24,283 bases of DNA, taken from IMG/VR virus record IMGVR_UViG_3300040801_002380, positions 1 through 24,283 of that record, one strand, 5' to 3'. This DNA is from a virus. Every line of letters begins with the position of its first letter. Position 1 is the first letter of the stretch. This document shows, piece after piece, positions 1 to 14,302 of this stretch. Both the position numbers and the translations under genes were made by a program. The notes beneath the pieces were generated by a model. That model saw nothing but the letters and a program-made list of their open reading frames with translations. It was not told the DNA's origin and did not search any database.

Positions 1-21
1 CCAGTTCAGCTTGATCGGCAT
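1..21 (-). CDS. Start of a further tail-region gene (partial, runs off window)
   Basis: An ATG at 21-19 overlaps the TGA stop of the upstream accessory tail gene in a TGATG arrangement, the same coupling used at many junctions in this operon. Only seven codons (MPIKLNW) lie in the window, so nothing can be said about function. It is listed because the junction style and reading direction make a real downstream gene likely. Confidence 0.5.
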
Positions 22-872
22 CAGAGGCCCCCGCAGAGATAGCCAGAAAAGAACACGAAGTTTCCGCTCTGGACGCTTCGACCGCTCGCCGACTGCGCGA
101 CAAGCGCCCGGATGATGTCGCCGGTGTTCACGCGGATTTGCCCCGACACCTGTTTGCCGTGGAAATAGACCGGTGCTTCGCAACCATTGCGCGCGAAGTC
201 CGCCCAATTCGAGCCCCCATCTGTCGACCGCTGCAATCGAGCCAAATACAGGTTCCCGGTCCCATCGATATACGTGCCGCAGTCGAACCGCGCCCATTTC
301 CCATTCCACGACGCCGGGACGGTGAAGCGCGACGTACCGTCATATGCCGACTCAGTGTCGAAAATCTCGTTTGCGAATTGCACCTCAAGAGAAGTGCCCG
401 CCGTCAGCGCCTGAGTGGCGTTTGACAAAGCACGGAACCCGGAGAAGGTGCCATGATCCAGAACCGACAAGCCGAAGAATGCGCGAGGATCAGCGACGGC
501 ATTTTGCGTCAGTTGAAGAAGGCCGCGTGTCCGCCACAGGTGGCCCGAGGTGAGAAGAACAGGACCAGTCGTCATCGTCTGCGCAAGCGTAATCGTCGGA
601 TCGACACGCGCCGTCGCGATCTGACTCCAATTTGAACCGCCGTCCGTAGACACTTCGAATTCGAAAGCCGTGTCCACGCTGCCACCACGCCAGCCCGCAT
701 CGAAAACCCCGTAGAGTCCATCGAGTCCAGCCGGAACGGTGTAGGTTCCATTTGCGGTGTTGAAGCCGGACTCGGTGTCGAGAATTTCGTCGCCGTAAAT
801 CCTGACCCCCCAAGTCCCGGCAATGTAACCTTGCAAGGCATTGGCAACCGCCCTGAACCCTTTGAGCGCCAT
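21..872 (-). CDS. Tail accessory/fibre protein made of two tandem copies of a beta-rich module
   Basis: 283 residues. The protein is an internal duplication. Copy 1 (about 1-139) and copy 2 (about 140-283) share, in order, GFRA(V/L)xNA (5-14 and 145-154), EI(L/F)DTES (29-35 and 169-175), a VPA...G...FD(A/C)G block (46-60 and 185-199) and STDGGSNW (75-82 and 216-223). The same module forms the C-terminus of the upstream tip protein. Composition is beta-rich with few charges, as in fibre-tip or C1q/lectin-like domains, but no named family is recognised. The start ATG overlaps the tip-protein stop (TGATG at 870-874), so the two are probably translated together. Likely an exposed tail-tip or receptor-contact protein; that role is inferred from position and domain sharing. 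Confidence 0.7.
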   Translation of the reverse strand: MALKGFRAVANALQGYIAGTWGVRIYGDEILDTESGFNTANGTYTVPAGLDGLYGVFDAGWRGGSVDTAFEFEVSTDGGSNWSQIATARVDPTITLAQTMTTGPVLLTSGHLWRTRGLLQLTQNAVADPRAFFGLSVLDHGTFSGFRALSNATQALTAGTSLEVQFANEIFDTESAYDGTSRFTVPASWNGKWARFDCGTYIDGTGNLYLARLQRSTDGGSNWADFARNGCEAPVYFHGKQVSGQIRVNTGDIIRALVAQSASGRSVQSGNFVFFSGYLCGGL

Positions 873-3800
873 CAGTCCAGAACCTCCATTGCGAGGAAAG
901 TCTCAGGCGATGCCAGCACGATGCCGCCGGTCGTGTTGAAGAACCCGAGAGTCCAAATATCGCCCGTGACCAATTCAACCGGCCCGAGTTGAACAAGGCC
1001 GTAGGAGTAAGCGGACGAATTCACGTTGCCCGTGAGGTTTTGCGCTTTCGAGCCGGTGCTGTTGCTGATGTAGACGCCAAAGCCCGAAGCGCCGGAATTG
1101 TGCCGCACCCCGCCGACGAACCGCGCCCACTTCCCGTTGAGCGACGCCGGAACCACGAAATACCCGAGCGATGTGTCGAAGCCACCCGTGTCGTCATCGA
1201 CCGTGTCCAGCGCGACCGTCAGGAACGCACTCGGTGAAACCGATCTGTCTGTGCCAAGGACGGCATGGAACCCGGTTCCGGCTGTTTCGGGAGACGAGGA
1301 TGGAGACGGGGACGGGGACGGGGACGCCGCGCCGGTGATGTCTTCCCCTTCGAGGAAGATCGGGGCAAGGAGAGGTTGGACACGGACGAAAGGTGTCTGC
1401 CAGTTTTCGTAGACCGGCGAGGTCCCCCGGAGCGTCTTGACGCCGAGGTCGAAGGCGAGAGTTTCCTCATCGACGTAGGGGTCCAGCACGGTCAAGTCAA
1501 ACGTGTAGGTGGTGTCGTCGTCTGGGGAGAGGTCGTCAAACTCGACCTCAACAAAGGTATCCTCGTCAACGAAGAAATCCCGCCGCGCGAAGAAGTCTGT
1601 GACACCGGATTCGAAAACGTCCGCGTGCATGAACATCACGCGCCCGAGGGGCAGGTAGGAAACGCCACTCTCGGGTCCAATCGTGGCCGAGGTATGATCC
1701 TCGACAGTCCCGGTCGTCTGCTGCAGCCGGTCCCTGTGGACCCAGGTGGCGGTGACCGAGCTGCCGACGAGCCCCGGATCATAGGAGCTGTCGACCATCA
1801 GCTGGCCCACAGGGTAGGGGCGGATGGCGCGAGAATCAAACGTGATCGTCTGCGCGGCGAGCAGACTGAGCGGGTAACTTTCGGTCGGTGTTTGGGTCGA
1901 CACCTTGACCTCGATTGCCTCGCCGGCGACGTATTGAACGGCATCGCCGAGGGTGGAGTTCTGCCACGCCACGGCATACGTCCCGACACCGTGCGGACGC
2001 GGGACCGTATCGAGGCAGCCCCTCCCTATCGTGAACGTGGCGACCCCGCCCGTAATCACGATGCTATCGACGCGGACGAGCTCGTCGCCAATAAGCAGGA
2101 GGTCCCCAACCTCGACCTGCGCCTCTTCCCCCGTCTCCAGCGCCGTGAAGGTATCGTCCGTCGCCAGCCCGGACAGGGGCGAGGTCAGCGCAAACGCCGG
2201 AGCGAACGGGGCCGAGTTGACGAAGAAGTAGGTGCCGCCGTTGTTGATCGAGATCTGAGACTGAATGTGGTTCTCGCCGGGGTTGTCGCAGCCAGCTAGC
2301 CAGAAGCCAAGGTCGGGCTCGCTCGCGAGATCCGCCAGCAGGTCGCTCTCGCCGATGTCCAGCAGCAGCTGGTAGAACGGGGCTTCGAAGGCGACTGTGA
2401 CATCGGGCGGCAGCGCCGTGTAATCCGGTGCCGGGGCGACGTCTTCGACCGCAAAGGAAGGTTGCACAGGGTCAAGCGCGAAGACGTCAGTGGCAAAGCG
2501 CACGATCACGGAGTTGTCGCGCAGATCGCCTTCCTCGATCTCGGTGACGCGACAAACCCGGTTGACAAGGCCAACCCGAGGCTCGTTCACGATGATCGCA
2601 GAGCCGAGGTTCACGGTCGTCGGAACGTAAGCGGCGCGGAAGGCCCCTCGCGTGATCGGAGACGACCGAGACTGGAGTTCACGTTGAGCGACCTTGTTCG
2701 CCAACGGGCCCCACGTGATGCCGGGCATCTCTACCTTCTCGTTGATGATCCGTCCCGATGCCAGCACGCCGGCGATATTGGTCAGGGTCACCGCGGTCGA
2801 CTTCCCGTTATCGCGCCGCGTGTATTCGAGCGTAATCTGGTTGGTTAGCTCAAAGGTCTTCGGTGTCTCCGGCTCCTGCACCCATTCCGTGATGACCGTG
2901 TTGTCGAACGTGAAGAGGTCCCCGACCGTGTAGTCCGGGCGGATGAGCTTGATCTCCCACTTCCCCGTCGCCGTGTCGAAGTAGATGCGCGCATCGATAT
3001 GGGACTCAATCATTCGCTTGATCGAGTCCATGTCGTTGATATTTGACCACTGAATCGAAAGGCCGAAGCCCTCATCATACAGAGTCTGGGCAGCCGTGGC
3101 AAAAGACGTCCCTATGTCGTTCTCGTCTCCCGAGCCATTCAGTAACGGGTTGACGAGGATGTCCCGCGCAATGTGGGCAGCGTTGAGGTCGGCGAAGGAC
3201 GAGGCGTTCGCAGTGATGGCGTCCGCCATCTCGTTCTCTTGGCCCGCATCAATGACCGTGGTCTCGCCAGAGCTGTCCAGCTGTTCCGTGTATGTGGTGT
3301 CTTCGAGATCAATGTTGAAGGTGAAGACCTCGACAGCATCGATGGCCGCGAGGTCCGCCACCGCTTCGTCGGTAATGGTCTGCGCCGGGTCCCCGCCCAC
3401 TCGCGTGGGCTCCCCATCCGTCACAAACACGATGATTCGACGGATGCGGTCGTTGCCGGAGGACGAGCCCACAGCGGAGCCGCCCGAGGCGGCCGGATTG
3501 GTCTGTGCCGGATTGGACGGGTTGACGTCGATAGCGTTGTCTACATCGTCGAAGAAGTCTCCTGCATTATCGAAAGCCACTGCAAAGTCGGTGGCGGACC
3601 CATTGTAAGGAGTGGCAGAGACGAGCGACTTGAGCGTTGAACGAGCGGTATTGTCCCACCCGATCTCTTCTGCGTAGAGATCGACAGCTCCGCCCCACCG
3701 CACGAAGGCCACGGAGTTCTTGTCCGAATTCGGGATGCGGTCCAAGAGGATGTTGATGGCCGTGATCGCCGTCGCCCCCTTCCCGCCCGTGAGCATCGAG

Positions 3801-4279
3801 CCAGAGTTATCCAAGGCGATATAGACTGCAAGAGGCTCTGTGCTAAACTCGACGTTGAGCGCAGCAAGGTTCTTCTCGAAGTTCCCGAATGTGCTGAAGA
3901 CATTGCGGACCTTCGCCCGGAAGGGCTTGATGTAGGGGTTGTTCCCGAAATAGAAGCGACGAAAGACGAGACTCATCACACCGCGGAAGTTAGGGACGTT
4001 GCCCCCCGGGAGTTTCGACGCAAGATAGGTATTCTGCTCCTGGGTCGGCTCACCCCCTTCCACGTCAATGAAGCCTGAGACGCCGCCCTCTCTCGCTTTA
4101 CCGCCGAAGAGGTTGTCGCGATTGATGCTGATCCGCCGGTTCTTCGCGGTCCCAGCCCACGCGGTCCGATCCCCGAAGTCGAGCTGAAGGAGGGCGTCAA
4201 CGGGCGACTGGCAAAGCACCGCGTGCATGCCGAGGAAATACTTGTATCCGACCGTGACCGACTTGCCGCCCTTACCCAT
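872..4279 (-). CDS. Tail tip / host-specificity (J-like) protein with an inserted vWA domain
   Basis: 1135 residues. Residues 1-130 look like the N-terminus of the central tail-tip proteins of siphophages (VGYKYFLGMH, INRDNLFGG, FRGVMSLVFRRF, NNPYIKPF). Residues about 365-650 resume that architecture (AAHIARDILVNPL, DEGFGLSIQW, HIDARIYFDTATGKWEIKLI). Between them, about 150-365 (nt 3832-3185), is a von Willebrand A domain with all MIDAS residues: DNSGS at 157-161, T230 in GSATDF and D288 in VTDGE. A Pro-Ser linker (about 984-1000) leads to a C-terminal module (about 1001-1135) shared with the next gene. AAGGAG lies 8 bases before the ATG, and the start overlaps the preceding gene by 8 bases. 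It probably forms the tail tip and contacts the host. Metal-dependent adhesion by the vWA domain is an inference from intact residues. Confidence 0.85.
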   Translation of the reverse strand: MGKGGKSVTVGYKYFLGMHAVLCQSPVDALLQLDFGDRTAWAGTAKNRRISINRDNLFGGKAREGGVSGFIDVEGGEPTQEQNTYLASKLPGGNVPNFRGVMSLVFRRFYFGNNPYIKPFRAKVRNVFSTFGNFEKNLAALNVEFSTEPLAVYIALDNSGSMLTGGKGATAITAINILLDRIPNSDKNSVAFVRWGGAVDLYAEEIGWDNTARSTLKSLVSATPYNGSATDFAVAFDNAGDFFDDVDNAIDVNPSNPAQTNPAASGGSAVGSSSGNDRIRRIIVFVTDGEPTRVGGDPAQTITDEAVADLAAIDAVEVFTFNIDLEDTTYTEQLDSSGETTVIDAGQENEMADAITANASSFADLNAAHIARDILVNPLLNGSGDENDIGTSFATAAQTLYDEGFGLSIQWSNINDMDSIKRMIESHIDARIYFDTATGKWEIKLIRPDYTVGDLFTFDNTVITEWVQEPETPKTFELTNQITLEYTRRDNGKSTAVTLTNIAGVLASGRIINEKVEMPGITWGPLANKVAQRELQSRSSPITRGAFRAAYVPTTVNLGSAIIVNEPRVGLVNRVCRVTEIEEGDLRDNSVIVRFATDVFALDPVQPSFAVEDVAPAPDYTALPPDVTVAFEAPFYQLLLDIGESDLLADLASEPDLGFWLAGCDNPGENHIQSQISINNGGTYFFVNSAPFAPAFALTSPLSGLATDDTFTALETGEEAQVEVGDLLLIGDELVRVDSIVITGGVATFTIGRGCLDTVPRPHGVGTYAVAWQNSTLGDAVQYVAGEAIEVKVSTQTPTESYPLSLLAAQTITFDSRAIRPYPVGQLMVDSSYDPGLVGSSVTATWVHRDRLQQTTGTVEDHTSATIGPESGVSYLPLGRVMFMHADVFESGVTDFFARRDFFVDEDTFVEVEFDDLSPDDDTTYTFDLTVLDPYVDEETLAFDLGVKTLRGTSPVYENWQTPFVRVQPLLAPIFLEGEDITGAASPSPSPSPSSSPETAGTGFHAVLGTDRSVSPSAFLTVALDTVDDDTGGFDTSLGYFVVPASLNGKWARFVGGVRHNSGASGFGVYISNSTGSKAQNLTGNVNSSAYSYGLVQLGPVELVTGDIWTLGFFNTTGGIVLASPETFLAMEVLD
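1302..1325 (-). repeat. Hexanucleotide tandem repeat encoding a Ser-Pro linker
   Basis: On the plus strand GGGGAC repeats about three and a half times; on the coding strand this reads as alternating Ser and Pro codons. It joins the body of the tip protein to its C-terminal module. Unit changes would lengthen or shorten the linker in frame. Confidence 0.7.
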
Positions 4280-4481: not shown

Positions 4482-4705
4482 TTCTTGGCCTGCTTCGTCT
4501 TGATCGCTTCGGTCTTGAGATCGCCATACCAATGGATCTGCGGCGTTACCCAGTTGGTCCCCCAGCAGACGGTGATCTCCTCGCCTTCCTCGGTCACTGG
4601 GATCTTGAAGTCGTTCAGGGTGCTCGGCTTCGGGGCCGGCGGCTTTGGTCGCAGCAGGCTCAGGGCGAGCGAGATAACGATGCTGATGAGTAGGTTGACC
4701 CACAT
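4478..4705 (-). CDS. Small membrane-anchored tail-region protein
   Basis: 75 residues. The first about 18 residues (MWVNLLISIVISLALSLL) form one hydrophobic segment, followed by a proline/lysine-rich stretch (RPKPPAPKP) and a polar region ending in lysines (QIHWYGDLKTEAIKTKQAKK). Proteins with this layout commonly precede the tip protein in siphophage tail operons. The start overlaps the hub gene's stop (TAATG at 4703-4707). The hydrophobic N-terminus could be a membrane segment or a buried assembly helix. No enzymatic motif is visible. Confidence 0.7.
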   Translation of the reverse strand: MWVNLLISIVISLALSLLRPKPPAPKPSTLNDFKIPVTEEGEEITVCWGTNWVTPQIHWYGDLKTEAIKTKQAKK

Positions 4706-5535
4706 TAGAACACCGTTTTGCCATCGAAGGGCGTTTCATCTGCCCAAGAGAATCCACCGAAATTGGCGAGGTTATTGAAGCGGCTGGCGCATGTCGCCCG
4801 CGAGAGATCGCAGCCGGGTGCGATGGTCACCGCCTGATTGCCGCCAGCCTGTGCCGCTGCGAAACCCGGGACCGGACCGAGCAGTACGATAGTCGAGCCA
4901 GAGTGGCTGACAATGAATTGACGCTTCCCGTTCCACTCGAAGACGCCACCCGAGAAGTATCCGGCAGCGTAGGAGGAGGCGGCGCTGATCGTTAAGGTAT
5001 TGAGCGAGATCGCCGTCACGGTCCCAGCCACTCGGAAGGACGCAATGTTGACGCCGCAGCCATAGCCCGCCTGCGAGTGGTATAGTGAATGCCGACAGGG
5101 GCGTTGGAAGACAGCGTTGATCCCCTTGCGACGCAACTCCGTGAAACGGTTCTCGGCGGTCAGGATGAGGCGCGTGAATCCGGGTTTGGCGTAGATGACC
5201 CGACCGCGGAAGCGCAGCGACTTTTCGAGCGCGCCGTCATTGAGAAAGACACGAGAGATCTGGACGGTATTGTCCTCGTACCCGTTATCCTCGATATACG
5301 TGCGCGCCCATTCATCGGACTGTGGGAACACGATGTCCACAGAGGCGCGCCCCATGACGCCGGTATTCCGGATCGCGGTATGGGAGATCGCTCGCGAGGA
5401 CCAGACCTGACTATCCGGATCGGTCCAGTCGGAGGAACGGCTCGTGAAAAACCGCTGCTCGCCGTCCTTGGCGAACTCGTAGAGCCAGATCGGACGTTTG
5501 CCGAAGATGTCGTCAAGGACGCTTGCGTAGCTCAT
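4705..5535 (-). CDS. Tail hub protein, BR0599 (DUF2163-like) family, probable Fe-S site
   Basis: 276 residues from the ATG at 5535, which overlaps the previous stop as ATGA; a longer open frame upstream is not favoured. The N-terminal part (MSYASVLDDIFGKRPIWLYE, FTSRSSDWTDPDSQVW) and the C-terminal part (RPCRHSLYHSQAGYGCGVN, APGCDLSRATCASRFNNLANFGGF) match the BR0599/DUF2163 tail family, related to the hub of gene transfer agents and the Fe-S tail-tip protein gpL of lambda. The protein has exactly four cysteines (147, 160, 242, 249), paired as expected for a [4Fe-4S] ligand set. It probably forms the baseplate hub ring between the distal tail protein and the tip. The cluster is inferred. Confidence 0.8.
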   Translation of the reverse strand: MSYASVLDDIFGKRPIWLYEFAKDGEQRFFTSRSSDWTDPDSQVWSSRAISHTAIRNTGVMGRASVDIVFPQSDEWARTYIEDNGYEDNTVQISRVFLNDGALEKSLRFRGRVIYAKPGFTRLILTAENRFTELRRKGINAVFQRPCRHSLYHSQAGYGCGVNIASFRVAGTVTAISLNTLTISAASSYAAGYFSGGVFEWNGKRQFIVSHSGSTIVLLGPVPGFAAAQAGGNQAVTIAPGCDLSRATCASRFNNLANFGGFSWADETPFDGKTVF

Positions 5536-6677
5536 CCCGGGACCTCCACGACCGGCGCGCTGATTGTCGTAAACCACCCATCCGCGGTACGCACGTGAGA
5601 TAGCTCGAACTGGTCAGTATCGTAACGCATCAGGTGAGCGAGCGAACAGTAAACATCCGCCTGCGCTGCAACCACCCCCGGCGTCGGGGAGACCGTGATC
5701 GTTGAGGACGTGCTGCCGGTAATCGATACCAGTCCCGCCTCGACCCCGACCGCCGCCCGCTCATCTTTCATGAACAGGCGTTTCCCGACTAGGTCGGTAT
5801 GGGACGCGAGGTCGTGGGCGATGGTAAACACCGTCTCGGCGGCGTCGGCGTTCTCCAGCACGCGGACCTCCTCTTTGAAGGTCGGCAACCAGAAGGGCCG
5901 ATCTTTACCACGACAGCGATGAAGGAACTGGAGGCGATCCCACCGCGCCTGTGGCGTATGGTCGGCCCAGACCAGAGTGTCGCGTCGGCGTATGTAATTC
6001 TCGGTCGTCTCGATGGCAAACTTGCCGAAGCCGTTGTCGATGAGATCGAGCGCCTGTGCGATGCCGCCTTCCAGCGGCCCCATGAGGGCGGGGCTCTCCT
6101 CGACAATGTCGAAGCCTCCGGAGGTTGCGTAGCGGGTTGCCGCGAGGTCCTTCGGATCAGTAACGAGGAACTGGACGGTGAGCGTGTTCTCGTTGATGCC
6201 TCGCTGGGTCGTTGCTCCATAAGGCGAAATGGCCGTAAGCACCGGGGCGACGAGCGAGCCAGCCGGATAGCCGTTCGAAAGCCCACCGGACACCAGGGTA
6301 AGGACGCCCGATCCCTCGGAATAGGTATCGACGGTCGCTATCTCGTAAAGGTCCGGCGACGCCCAGAAGATAACCTCTCCTCCGTCGCGGTAATCGGCTG
6401 GGTTGACGAGAAAGGTATCCTCTGACGGGGAGACCTCGGCATCGAGGGCGGTCATGTAGGCCCACAGGGGTACCGACCACTCGCCGGCCGCATTATCGCC
6501 GAAAGCCTCCATCGCCTGCGCGAAACTCGCGTCCCGTTCCCGATAGCTGTAATCAAGGATCTGGGTGGCGTCGTGAAGGCTGTCGCGGAACTCCCGCGTG
6601 AAGGTCTTCCGCACGTCCGTATAGAACCGCAGGCGCTCTGCGATCTGGCTAGGGACAAAGGGGAAGACGGTCGACAC
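5532..6677 (-). CDS. Distal tail / baseplate adaptor protein
   Basis: 381 residues. The start is a GTG directly after the tape-measure stop, with AGGGG 8 bases upstream. The N-terminus has TDVRKTFTREFRDSL and AGEWSVPLWAYMTAL. Further on, RCRGKDRPFWLPTFKEEVRVL is typical of distal tail proteins that carry a wrapped beta domain after the tape measure. Its place between tape measure and hub fits the protein that joins the tube to the hub. I cannot assign an exact family with confidence. Stop and next start overlap as ATGA, so hub and adaptor are probably made in matched amounts. Confidence 0.65.
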   Translation of the reverse strand: MSTVFPFVPSQIAERLRFYTDVRKTFTREFRDSLHDATQILDYSYRERDASFAQAMEAFGDNAAGEWSVPLWAYMTALDAEVSPSEDTFLVNPADYRDGGEVIFWASPDLYEIATVDTYSEGSGVLTLVSGGLSNGYPAGSLVAPVLTAISPYGATTQRGINENTLTVQFLVTDPKDLAATRYATSGGFDIVEESPALMGPLEGGIAQALDLIDNGFGKFAIETTENYIRRRDTLVWADHTPQARWDRLQFLHRCRGKDRPFWLPTFKEEVRVLENADAAETVFTIAHDLASHTDLVGKRLFMKDERAAVGVEAGLVSITGSTSSTITVSPTPGVVAAQADVYCSLAHLMRYDTDQFELSHVRTADGWFTTISAPVVEVPG

Positions 6678-8486
6678 TTAGCGGTCCCCTTGGTTCCGAT
6701 TGACCACGTTCATGATCAGCTGCTCCCCCTGCGCCGTCGAAAGATATTCGCCCACGAGGCCGGGGTCAAGGACGTTGACGATCTTGGTGTTGACCTGCGG
6801 AGCGGCGGCCTGTGGGCGCATCTGACGCAGCTCGCCTTTCATTCGATCCGCTGGCGTCACCGAAGCACCGCGCGGCAGGTTGACCAGCTCGGGTCCCTGC
6901 TCTCCGACCAACGCCATCCCTCCCGGAGCGTTATTCGTTCCGGTGGCGAATTTGAAGATGTTCGAGAGAAGCCCGACGCCCGGCGTCTGCCCGAAGAGTC
7001 CAGCCATCGGCCCTTGGCCGAAGAGCGCCGCCTGCAGAGCAGCCTTGGCAATCGTGCGCCCGACCTGATCCATGATGTCGATCAGGGACCCGCCATCGAT
7101 GGCGAGATCCACTAGTGAGTCCGCCGCACGGGAGGCCTGCTGCTGGAAGAACTTCGCGGCGTCCGACGCCCCGTCATACTTCTCCTTCAGCTGCTCCAAT
7201 GCGCGCCCGTAGGTATCGGCGTTGATGAAGCCCCCCGAGTGGAGCTTCTCGATATTCTCCAGCTCGGCCGCATACTTCTCCGCCTCGGTCCGCGTCGCCT
7301 CAAACAGGCGTTTAGCCTCCTGCTGCATCCGCTGACGCTCACGCTCGGCCTCGGACACCCCGCCCCCGCCGCCCCCAACCTTCGGAGAAGCGATGGGTTT
7401 GACAGGCGTAGGCGGGAGCAGGTCGCCCATCGCCGCCCCCTGCTTGTAGAGCGGAGTTCCGAAGTTCATCGGGCCCCCGGCCATCGCCGCACGCACTTGT
7501 CGAGCTGCGTTGGCTGTAGCGGTCGTCTGCCCGGCAAGCTCCCCCATCTGCACGGTCAGCGAGGCCGTCGCTTGAAGCGCAGCGAGAAGCTCGGGAGGCA
7601 GCTTCGAGGCCTCTACATTGTTCTCTTCCATCAGGCGACGGAATTCCCGCAACGCCGCCGCGCGATCCTCGAAGCTCATGGCGTCCCGAGCCGCGCGCAA
7701 GGCGCGCTCCATCTCGCGCGCAACCTGCGAATTAACCCCAAACTCTGTGGAGATGTTATTGATCGCCGTCGCCAGCATCGTCCCGGACGAGAAAGCGGTG
7801 TTGCTCGTCATCATGAATTCCTTGAGCGAGCGATCCCATTCCAGCACCGTCTCGGCCAACTGATTCTGCGCAGAGGCAATCGAGAACTCAGCAAGCGCCA
7901 AGGCAGCATCCCGGACCTCGGTCGCCATCTCGCCATACTTCTCGCCCAGCTCATCGACGGACATCTCAAGGATATTCTGGGCCGCTTCGAGGTCCGAGAT
8001 CGTGGCCTGAAGGTCCCCCATGACATCATCAAGGGTGCGGGCCTCGCTCCCGGCGAACGAGAACGCCGCCGCCAGTAGAGGAATACTGACCGCGGCGAGC
8101 GTGCCTAGGATCGCGCCCACAGGGCCGAAGATCGAGAGGATTTGCGAACCTTGCTGCGCGAAGACGACTGACGCCCGGGTCCCCGCCTGGAACTGGATGG
8201 CCATGTCCTGCAACTGGAAGCCGAGGTTCTGGACCTTGAAGCGGGTCGCACTCGACATATTCCCGAGCTGGCCAAGGGCCGAGGTCATTCCCGCCGCCCC
8301 TCGGGTTCCGCTTGCCTGCTTCGCCGCCGACGCTACCCCGGAGAAACCCTTCTCCATCATGACCATGGAGCGGGCGGTCTTCGCTTGCGTGATTGCCACG
8401 ATATCCCCGAAGCCCGTGACGCTTTTCTTCGCGGCGTCGAGCTGGCGGGTATCGAGGCGCATGCCGAGGTCGATGAAATCAGCCAT
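6678..8486 (-). CDS. Tail tape measure protein
   Basis: 602 residues. The features are those of a tape measure: an Ala/Gln-rich helical N-terminus, one long hydrophobic segment (about 116-146, beginning ILSIFGPVGAILG), a Gly-rich break (KVGGGGGG) followed by a highly charged coiled-coil stretch (EAERERQRMQQEAKRLFEA), and the family C-terminal signature (GGMALVGEQGPELV, LPRGASVTPADRM). GAGG lies 7 bases before the ATG, and the start overlaps the frameshifted chaperone end by 8 bases. Using the usual 1.5 angstrom per residue, the length suggests a tail near 90 nm, short for a siphophage. No peptidase or lysozyme domain is seen in it. Confidence 0.88.
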   Translation of the reverse strand: MADFIDLGMRLDTRQLDAAKKSVTGFGDIVAITQAKTARSMVMMEKGFSGVASAAKQASGTRGAAGMTSALGQLGNMSSATRFKVQNLGFQLQDMAIQFQAGTRASVVFAQQGSQILSIFGPVGAILGTLAAVSIPLLAAAFSFAGSEARTLDDVMGDLQATISDLEAAQNILEMSVDELGEKYGEMATEVRDAALALAEFSIASAQNQLAETVLEWDRSLKEFMMTSNTAFSSGTMLATAINNISTEFGVNSQVAREMERALRAARDAMSFEDRAAALREFRRLMEENNVEASKLPPELLAALQATASLTVQMGELAGQTTATANAARQVRAAMAGGPMNFGTPLYKQGAAMGDLLPPTPVKPIASPKVGGGGGGVSEAERERQRMQQEAKRLFEATRTEAEKYAAELENIEKLHSGGFINADTYGRALEQLKEKYDGASDAAKFFQQQASRAADSLVDLAIDGGSLIDIMDQVGRTIAKAALQAALFGQGPMAGLFGQTPGVGLLSNIFKFATGTNNAPGGMALVGEQGPELVNLPRGASVTPADRMKGELRQMRPQAAAPQVNTKIVNVLDPGLVGEYLSTAQGEQLIMNVVNRNQGDR

Positions 8487-12141: not shown

Positions 12142-12497
12142 AGATCGATGAACACCAATTTGGCCACGGCAGCCCGCAGCTCGCTGACCTTGAGGGTCTC
12201 GATGACCTGCCGCTCCATTCCGTGGGCCTCGGCCAGCTCGGCGAGCTCTTTGCGCGGCAGATTGTTAAACCGGGTCTTCGTCATCTCGCGCTCTTGGATA
12301 AGCTGCGCGTGCGGCGGGCGACGCTCGACCCCACCAATCTCAAGGCGTCCGGACTGAACCCAGCTCTCGATGTATCCCACGTTATCGGGATGCGTCAGAT
12401 GAGCCCGCGAAATCTCGGCGCTGCGTCCGGGCCGAAGCTCCAACGCCGCCGTCTTCAGGGAGAAGGTCCGGTTACTCCGGTTCGTGATCTTCGGCAT
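12138..12497 (-). CDS. Small head-region protein with C-terminal helical (HeH/Rho-N-like) module
   Basis: 119 residues from the ATG at 12497, chosen because GGAGG lies 5 bases upstream; it overlaps the previous gene by 26 bases. The first half (ITNRSNRTFSLKT, LELRPGRSAEISRAHL, YIESWVQSGRLEIG) is a small beta-rich unit. The second half (LPRKELAELAEAHGM, LKVSELRAAVAKLV) resembles the helix-extension-helix or Rho-N-like modules that bind nucleic acid in some proteins. A similar tail end occurs in the small gene after the capsid gene. Function unknown; probably a minor head or connector component. Confidence 0.6.
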   Translation of the reverse strand: MPKITNRSNRTFSLKTAALELRPGRSAEISRAHLTHPDNVGYIESWVQSGRLEIGGVERRPPHAQLIQEREMTKTRFNNLPRKELAELAEAHGMERQVIETLKVSELRAAVAKLVFIDL

Positions 12498-13035
12498 CGT
12501 CGCCTCCGTCGATGAAGTCGCTCGGGCCCCCAAGCAGGACCCGCGTCCAACCACTCATAGAACGCATCCCGGCCCGATATTCGGTATCCACGCTCGGCCA
12601 GACCCGCCGAAACCCTTTGCAGGAGCGCCAGTTGGTTTTGTCGAAGAAGTGCGGGCTCGGGGTCATCGGAACCCCGCAGAAGAGGACCTCTTGATACCCA
12701 CAGTTAACCATGGCCACCTTCGCGACGTAGAGGCCGCTCGATCCGGACGCTTTCTGCCCCGGGAAGGTGTACTCCGTGACCCGTATCTCCGGGACGTCCT
12801 TATGCGCTCGATGGGCCCAAAAGGCCTTAGCGGGCGGGTGACCGTTCGCGGCACGCTGTTTACGCCAGCGGTCGAGCTTTTCGGGGTGGAGGCTTACCCA
12901 GCCGTCCAATTCGCCTGCCCAAACAGCCCCCGCATCGTTGCACGCGAATACCGCGTCATAACGAATACCGAGTTCTTCGACCTTGGCGAGATCCGTGAGC
13001 AGCGTATGCCCGCCGCCGAGGCAGAGCGCCCTCAC
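12472..13035 (-). CDS. Rossmann-like protein of the sugar-modification block (MptE/DUF115-like?)
   Basis: 187 residues from a GTG at 13035 that overlaps the glycosyltransferase stop (GTGA), with GGGAG 8 bases upstream. It opens with a beta-strand and glycine turn (RALCLGGGHTLLTDLAKVEEL), then AVFACNDAGAVWAGELDGWVSLHPEKL and later GSSGLYVAKVAMVNCGYQEVLFCGVPM. The order (nucleotide-binding-like loop, ND pair, SG..A..A helix, GVPM) recalls DUF115/MptE-like and sialyltransferase-like proteins often found beside phage glycosyltransferases. Enzyme activity is not established. Co-overlap with the two neighbours implies a joint role. Confidence 0.55.
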   Translation of the reverse strand: MRALCLGGGHTLLTDLAKVEELGIRYDAVFACNDAGAVWAGELDGWVSLHPEKLDRWRKQRAANGHPPAKAFWAHRAHKDVPEIRVTEYTFPGQKASGSSGLYVAKVAMVNCGYQEVLFCGVPMTPSPHFFDKTNWRSCKGFRRVWPSVDTEYRAGMRSMSGWTRVLLGGPSDFIDGGDDAEDHEPE

Positions 13036-13646
13036 AGTCCGATCTCCCACGGCCGCGGCTTCCCGTGGAAGCAGACGATTCTCGCAGCTGGCGGGATGAC
13101 GCCTCCCCGGCAATGACGCTTCCACGAGACCACGGCCCCAGGTAGCACGTCTTGCCAGTAGGTTCGCAGCCCGTGCGGGATCGCGTCACCGATGAAGCCT
13201 TGATCTCCCCACTTCCGCGACGTCCGGCATTCGCGCATATATCGCTGCGGGTCCTTGGCGAAAGAACGGTAGACGTGGCTGGCGTCGCCACTCCACCCCA
13301 TCAGCCCCGACCCCATCAACCCCTCGACCCCATTGAACTCTCGAAGGGCAAGGAAGTCCCGCACACGCACCTGATGGCAGATGGGTTCGAGATCGCCGGT
13401 GATCAGGGTATCGAGGTCGAGGTAGAGGACCGGCCCCGGCAGCTTGAAGGCCTCGATCTTCGACCACCACCCCGGCCAGTTATTGAGCAGGGGGAGCGTC
13501 CGGATATATCCGGGCAACTCCATGTCGGTCAGGCAGTAGAAGGCGCTTTCGATTGGCGACCATGTCTGCCACTGTTCGTGAAGCCGTGCGACGTGGCCGG
13601 GGCGAAAGTCTCCGCCCGACCGAAGAACGGTAACGACCTTCAGCAT
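13032..13646 (-). CDS. GT-A fold glycosyltransferase (GT8-like)
   Basis: 204 residues. It begins MLKVVTVLRSGGDF, the strand typical of nucleotide-sugar binding GT-A enzymes. Metal-binding DxD is at 77-79 in VLYLDLDTLITGDL, an acceptor-side WGDQGFI at 146-152, and a C-terminal CFHGKPRPW (192-200) whose histidine usually completes the metal site. All expected catalytic elements are present, so it looks active. It transfers a sugar from an activated donor to an unknown acceptor. It overlaps the FkbM gene by 7 bases upstream and the Rossmann-like gene by GTGA downstream. No membrane segment. Confidence 0.8.
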   Translation of the reverse strand: MLKVVTVLRSGGDFRPGHVARLHEQWQTWSPIESAFYCLTDMELPGYIRTLPLLNNWPGWWSKIEAFKLPGPVLYLDLDTLITGDLEPICHQVRVRDFLALREFNGVEGLMGSGLMGWSGDASHVYRSFAKDPQRYMRECRTSRKWGDQGFIGDAIPHGLRTYWQDVLPGAVVSWKRHCRGGVIPPAARIVCFHGKPRPWEIGL

Positions 13647-14302
13647 GGGGTCGCCAGAATGTTCCGCTCGTCCGCCCGCCGCGAGATGTAGTCCCGAGCG
13701 ATGAGCCAGTGTTCGAGGCGCGCAAAATGCTCCGGAGTGTTCGCTTCGAGGACTAGGGTCGGCCGGTCTTCCTCGATAATCCGAGAGGCCCCTGCCAGCA
13801 CCGAAGCTTCATGGCCCTCCACGTCGATCTTGAGCAGGGCAACGCGATCCGCCACAACGCTGTCCAAGGTAACTGTGGGCACTTCTTCGCTGGTCGGCCT
13901 CCCGCACGTCGCTGCCTCAATCGATCCTCCCGAGGTAAGGGGAAGCGCCGGGTTCGACCAGAACGTGGTGCTTCCAATCCTGTCGGACGCGGCGGCAGGG
14001 ACGATCCGCAGCTGCTCCTCCGTGAGCTGGTTGAGATCCCGATTGGCGCGCAGACGGTCGAGGACCCGAGGGTTCGGCTCGAAGGCAATGACCGGGACAT
14101 CCATCAGGGCGAACGGGATCGAGAACCACCCGGTCGAAGCCCCAACATCAACGAAGACCCCGCCGTCTCCTTGGGCGAGGGCGCTTTTCATGAAGATAAA
14201 GGTCGCTGGCTCGAAAGTCTTGCCGGGGTTGGCGCGCAGCCAACGGATGATCATATCGTCCTTGTCCCAGAAGGACGCCCCGTTCGCTCTAAACTCGTTC
14301 AC
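13640..14302 (-). CDS. FkbM-family methyltransferase
   Basis: 220 residues from a GTG at 14302 overlapping the previous stop (GTGA), with GAGAGGGG 8 bases upstream. SAM-binding motif I is VFVDVGASTGWFSIPFA (about 49-65), the acidic motif II is VIAFEPNPRVL (71-81), and the FkbM signature LLKIDVEGHEASVLAGA spans about 157-173, followed by RPTLVLEAN. These are intact. FkbM enzymes O-methylate sugars and related small molecules. Being coupled to a glycosyltransferase suggests methylation of the transferred sugar. The placement, within head-completion genes, is unusual. Confidence 0.88.
   Translation of the reverse strand: MNEFRANGASFWDKDDMIIRWLRANPGKTFEPATFIFMKSALAQGDGGVFVDVGASTGWFSIPFALMDVPVIAFEPNPRVLDRLRANRDLNQLTEEQLRIVPAAASDRIGSTTFWSNPALPLTSGGSIEAATCGRPTSEEVPTVTLDSVVADRVALLKIDVEGHEASVLAGASRIIEEDRPTLVLEANTPEHFARLEHWLIARDYISRRADERNILATPC

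Follow-up and report, generated by a model that had tools for sequence, protein, structure and literature searches.

Results

The tail-tip gene and its neighbourhood

The window analysed here, a stretch of 24,283 nucleotides, is positions 1 to 24,283 of the IMG/VR virus record IMGVR_UViG_3300040801_002380. Its minus strand carries at positions 872-4279 an open reading frame starting with ATG and encoding a tail-tip (J-like/baseplate hub) protein of 1135 amino acids. The family profile phrog_1101 matches residues 1-875 with an E-value of 1.6e-181 and the tail protein family phrog_6284 matches with E 8e-138. Among solved tips, the sequence matches those of phages Chi (8vjh, E 1.4e-69) and JBD30 (8rk3, E 2.1e-64), and a Foldseek search with the predicted fold returns the same two structures (8rk3, E 1.9e-27; 8vjh, E 7e-26), with T5 pb3 and lambda gpJ scoring lower. 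The product is a tail-tip hub of the lambda J/JBD30 gp53 type, and homology to this type is found on both flanks of an insert. Ahead of the insert lies the N-terminal, HDII-insertion-like hub part (residues 1-144; 3848-4279, minus strand), as delimited by profile alignment to JBD30 and Chi, and behind it follows the remaining conserved J-like hub (residues 363-875; 1655-3193, minus strand), aligned with 8rk3 and 8vjh.

An earlier note, made from the letters of this DNA, had read the sequence on both sides of the insert as one canonical J-like protein. This holds up to about residue 875, as judged by phrog_1101, JBD30 and Chi, while residues 1000-1135 (872-1282, minus strand), located behind a Ser/Pro linker, form a separate C-terminal domain. 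This domain occurs twice in the 283-residue product of the next downstream gene (21-872, minus strand), two stretches of which are matched in BLASTP with E-values of 5e-12 and 3e-8; neither the C-terminal domain nor the repeats matched a known family. Good candidates for the part that primarily binds the receptor are residues 1000-1135 and the downstream gene product.

Also encoded on the minus strand are an upper-baseplate/hub partner of 290 amino acids (BR0599/Gp84_N, from domain and phrog matches; 4705-5577) and a tail assembly, distal-tail-like protein of 381 amino acids (phrog match; 5532-6677); the tape measure lies at 6678-8486. The resulting gene order, i.e. tape measure, distal-tail-like protein, upper baseplate, a small chaperone-like gene and tip, matches that of phages Elanor, R6L and MW2. 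Between the head and the tail genes, positions 12472-14302 hold a glycosyltransferase-like gene (phrog_1962), an FkbM methyltransferase and one gene with no match, which are possible glycan-modification cargo. PADLOC gave no match.

The insert is a von Willebrand A domain

Pfam, profile and structure prediction agree in confirming that residues ~145-362 of the tip (3194-3847, minus strand) are a real von Willebrand A (vWA) domain. The earlier note had set its limits at about residues 150-365; they are better drawn as given here. The Pfam family PF00092 reaches 29.9 bits against the excised segment at a cut-off of 23.8, bearing out the vWA assignment of the earlier note; against the whole tip protein it scores 23.7 bits (E 6e-5), just below this cut-off, which is probably why a PF00092 family search of the IMG/VR record returned no match. 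A custom vWA profile recovers the domain with E 2e-58. We aligned 41 homologous segments taken from contigs of viruses and of bacterial genomes; 40 of these segments match PF13519 and 39 PF00092, some of them also weakly matching CobT_C.

This alignment served as input for AlphaFold, for which input alignments comprised 41-52 sequences. The vWA segment was predicted with a mean pLDDT of 84.3, the core blocks mostly reaching 90-98 in an alternating order of strands and helices, and residues 1-643 with a mean of 84.1; the fold predicted for the segment is the Rossmann-type alpha/beta sandwich of a vWA domain. Foldseek returned 225 PDB matches for the vWA model at E<=1e-3 (best E 2.9e-9), headed by the ITI heavy chain, vWF A3/A1, TEM8 and integrin I domains. 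The nearest bacterial relatives in the PDB found with the tip vWA profile are 9no5, a putative secreted hemolysin-type protein, and 9das (E 3.9e-14), the vWFA domain of a large adhesin of Aeromonas hydrophila. A vWA-like Foldseek match was also obtained to chain 8fqc_C1 of the baseplate of the Agrobacterium phage Milano; this candidate was set aside, the text of the corresponding paper mentioning no vWA domain.

The last vWA helix (348-359) leads, in the model of residues 1-643, almost directly to the first HDII elements, and 24 of 26 tips have a linker of 26-27 residues between vWA and HDII. Residues 252-277 (3449-3526, minus strand) form a loop predicted with low confidence (pLDDT < 50), which the window shares with close relatives. 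It is rich in Gly, Ser and Asn, follows an acidic stretch, is common to the relative L017 and is missing from most homologues.

The insertion site lies at a hub-domain junction

The position of the insert was determined by aligning the family profile A3 to the two solved tips. Profile positions 1-140 correspond to JBD30 residues 1-139 and positions 1-145 to Chi residues 1-145, and the alignment resumes at about position 330 with JBD30 residue 148 and Chi residue 155. The tips of the family thus have an insert of ~190 residues where JBD30 and Chi have 8-9, and judged from these alignments the vWA domain is a clean insertion relative to the solved tips. It occupies a surface loop where the N-terminal HDII-insertion-like part ends, directly ahead of a conserved MNPAHI stretch that we take as the start of HDII, the names of the hub domains being inferred from PMC10721106 and from our alignments. 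The proposal of the earlier note that the domain was inserted at a hub-domain junction is thereby upheld: relatives devoid of the vWA have a loop of 8-9 residues, and empty as well as refilled slots exist. Equivalence with the FNIII-A insertion of lambda was considered and rejected on position, since FNIII-A lies earlier in the chain, within the HDII-insertion domain between beta4 and beta13 (PMC10721106), and is therefore not the same insertion. Some tips (L021, L036 and similar ones) have ~110 additional N-terminal residues ahead of the vWA slot, apparently a second hub insertion.

The MIDAS is complete and retained

The window's tip carries all MIDAS residues exactly where the earlier note had located them. 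By alignment, motif 1 is DNSGS at residues 157-161 (D157, S159 and S161; 3797-3811, minus strand), motif 2 is T230 (3590-3592, minus strand) and motif 3 is D288 within TDGEP (3416-3418, minus strand). In the AlphaFold model of residues 1-643, D157-S161 occupy the beta1-alpha1 loop behind strand 150-157, the first of the vWA, T230 is part of the loop preceding helix 232-236 and D288 directly follows the core strand 280-287. This predicted arrangement corresponds to the canonical MIDAS layout, and from the topology of the loops we infer that the five residues cluster in space.

Conservation was assessed in 33 representative tips chosen for DxSxS, leaving D288 and T230 as the independent positions: Asp is found at the former in all 33 and Thr at the latter in 31. 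In the alignment of homologous segments, two Gilliamella tips have Glu in place of this Thr. A larger set of 121 distinct vWA segments from tips and neighbouring proteins was collected by profile and not by motif, and motifs 1 and 3 (DxSxS and [TSG]DG) are both kept in 120 of them. The exception is L018 (4491 onward), in which the first motif reads DNSAW and motifs 1 and 3 are lost. Its tip is a close relative of the window's with a degenerate vWA, i.e. a natural MIDAS loss. The vWA copy of phage RcSpartan, inspected in addition to this set, contains DVSGS but no recognisable [TSG]DG motif. Identity of the homologous vWA segments to that of the window ranges from about 20 to 47%.

Distribution of tip vWA domains

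Screening 50,697 GenBank phage records revealed a tip vWA in 20, representing 13 distinct phages, whereas related tips occur in 756 records, most of them lacking the domain. The cultured phages infect Bordetella (4), Xanthomonas (2), Stenotrophomonas (2), Erythrobacter (2), Variovorax (2) and Pseudomonas (PaMx28). Tip vWA domains are frequent among metagenomic viruses and are also present in some bacterial genome contigs. Among the phages with a vWA tip, MW2 (KY000218/APL99216) is the only one in which the protein is named for the domain ('von Willebrand factor type A').

In some relatives a vWA of the tip subfamily is also found in the proteins encoded next to the tip. The upper-baseplate protein, homologous to the window's 4705-5577 product, carries it in 11 distinct phages; as an N-terminal vWA in the BR0599 protein it was seen in L010, L011, L013, L015, L001, L084, L087, L089, L094, L153, L175 and L177. 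The distal-tail-like protein, homologous to the 5532-6677 product, carries it in four phages (L021:1969, L111:1103, L019:518 and L174:1946, the last being RcSpartan gene 22), and RcSpartan has none in its tip. In the window the vWA is confined to the tip, the partner proteins having none. In a quick tree most upper-baseplate copies cluster together, and the distal copies group with tips of the lineage they come from. Movement of the module from one gene to an adjacent one is therefore probable.

The insertion slot is a swap site

Comparison of closely related tips indicates that the slot is a swap site, occupied by vWA, galactose-binding-like or other domains on otherwise similar tips. R6L, which has the vWA, and L088, which has another occupant, share 81% and 79% identity in the two flanks and 21% in the slot. 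BAPIC_0004 (vWA) and L165 (other occupant) behave similarly (flanks 83% and 66%, slot 22%), as do the two Septimatrevirus phages QH3 (vWA) and SCUT-S3 (other; flanks 64% and 57%, slot 24%). Mapped on a quick tree of the hub behind the slot, the presence of the vWA requires 8-9 changes, at least 5 of which are forced by strongly supported branches.

When aligned, four of the alternative inserts hit a beta-galactosidase (1tg7, E 3.6e-4) in its galactose-binding-like region; matches to GH2 sugar-binding and PA14 domains are weaker, and Pfam scores are also sub-threshold. Galactose-binding-like domains with weak profile scores were seen in the tip slots of L088, L159, L171, L178 (SCUT-S3) and L176 (VBv52). 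Divergence of the vWA outpaces that of the hub core in every identity bin, with 56.6% versus 65.6% identity in the bin of 60-70% core identity. A host-contacting module would be expected to behave in this way, being exchanged and diverging faster while its scaffold stays constant, albeit this is no proof of binding.

Discussion

What the vWA domain does at the tail tip

We favour a model according to which the tip vWA is a module for metal-dependent adhesion exposed on the surface of the tip, and on the basis of sequence comparisons and predicted structures we put its probability at roughly 0.6. Metal-dependent adhesion, as proposed in the earlier note, is plausible and indirectly supported: the identification of the vWA, its clean insertion, the retention of the MIDAS in 120 of the 121 segments despite fast divergence, the swaps in the slot, including those with galactose-binding-like domains, and the adhesin homologue 9das all favour it. 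The slot would serve as a display position for modules binding the host surface. If each tail has three hub copies, as JBD30 and lambda do, three vWA domains would be presented, and the MIDAS together with a divalent metal might grip a protein or glycan of the host envelope by an acidic group. The role of the vWA may be that of a secondary or orienting adhesin alongside the receptor-binding parts at the C-terminus, i.e. residues 1000-1135 and the downstream gene product. For infection in general the domain appears dispensable because most related tips do without it (20 versus 756 records). A pilus as the target, also suggested in the earlier note, is unsupported: the Pamexvirus phages AXL1 and DLP4 depend on the type IV pilus (PMC9206674, PMC6469090), and their tips of 771-772 amino acids are too short for the insert, compared to 945 in the vWA-bearing PaMx28, a member of this genus. 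JBD30 grips the pilus with separate tail fibres, gp47/gp48 (PMC11445458).

The presence of the vWA in two other tail-tip proteins could equally indicate contacts inside the tip. The domain would then bind neighbouring tip proteins via its metal and stabilise or assemble the tip instead of binding the host, a role we regard as possible though doubtful. It would fit that protein assembly is often mediated by vWA domains, that the subfamily is shared with the upper-baseplate (11 phages) and distal-tail-like (four phages) proteins, which are neighbours in the particle, and that the near-fixed link to HDII suggests a rigid mount. Close relatives, however, swap the vWA for unrelated domains and retain the tip, the window's partner proteins have no vWA to pair with, and RcSpartan has its copy in the distal-tail-like protein and not in the tip. 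The same exchange with unrelated folds argues against a mechanistic gate or plug that, like lambda FNIII-A/HDII-ins2 or the T5 plug, would control tip opening and the release of tape measure and DNA, and we consider such a function unlikely. HDII-ins2 and the T5 plug are indeed inserted in roughly this part of the hub, and HDII and HDII-ins of lambda rotate upon opening (PMC10721106, PMC11101478); the position differs, the vWA lying at the end of the HDII-insertion part before HDII and FNIII-A inside that domain. Helix 348-359, joining HDII almost directly by a linker of near-constant length, could relay ligand binding at the MIDAS to HDII. Such a linker would suit a rigid mount and, on a more speculative view, integrin-like signalling via the last helix. 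A trigger of the latter kind, in which the ligand would shift the last helix, act on HDII and open the tip, making the vWA a sensor coupling host contact to DNA release, seems to us quite improbable.

A functionless passenger or decaying domain might be read from the DNSAW motif of the close relative L018, but the preservation of both motifs in 120 of the 121 distinct segments, at identities to the window's of about 20-47%, renders this very improbable. Practically negligible is an intracellular vWA of the MoxR/CobT type working with an AAA+ partner: tailed-virus vWA domains have been reported as such proteins beside AAA+ ATPases, including in haloarchaeal siphoviruses (PMC7911831, PMC8651126), and weak CobT_C matches occur in some members, but the fusion into a tail-tip protein encoded among tail genes already contradicts it. 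The window proteins scanned include no recognised AAA+ ATPase, and the neighbours of the tip gene are tail proteins.

Comparison with known systems

The vWA domain, the hub and the modularity of tips are each already known, while the way they are combined, the swap slot and the occurrence in three tip proteins seem not to have been described; open-licence papers yielded no account of a vWA in the hub of a siphophage tip. The adhesion module we propose has its closest counterparts in the tips of the Bordetella phage MW2 and of Elanor, Mallos, Bhz59, QH3, PaMx28, R6L, ZS04, BAPIC_0004 and V45iii, which share hub, slot and vWA subfamily with the window. MW2/Elanor-type tips are ~29-34% identical to the window's and keep the MIDAS in those examined. 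Several of these phages have a second vWA in the upper-baseplate protein, which the window lacks, and the window's tip differs from theirs in its C-terminus and in having the longer disordered loop. JBD30 gp53 (8rk3) and the Chi minor tail protein (8vjh) show the same hub fold on either side of the insert, with 8-9 residues in place of the vWA. Lambda gpJ likewise has a domain, FNIII-A/HDII-ins2, inserted in the HDII-insertion region of its tip protein, but FNIII-A is fibronectin-like, sits elsewhere in the chain and contacts the plug gpI.

Integrin alpha-I, vWF A and TEM8 share the vWA fold and the MIDAS, although being eukaryotic and only 10-17% identical in the structural matches. The integrin alpha-I domain is likewise inserted in a loop of another domain. 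A further parallel is given by the tail fibres of eCIS, in which a VWA is a fused module of a tail-derived particle and is discussed in terms of receptor binding (PMC12923769); it belongs to fibres of a contractile system, in contrast to the window's vWA in a siphophage hub. If the adhesion model holds, a bacterial virus would, unusually, display an integrin-type fold at its tail tip, and the occurrence of the module in three adjacent tip proteins hints at a general-purpose tail-tip adhesin. In a large group of siphophage tips the hub contains a domain-exchange slot in which a metal-dependent integrin-like domain and putative sugar-binding domains alternate, suggesting an exchangeable grip for seizing the host cell and offering a direct handle on host choice by such phages.
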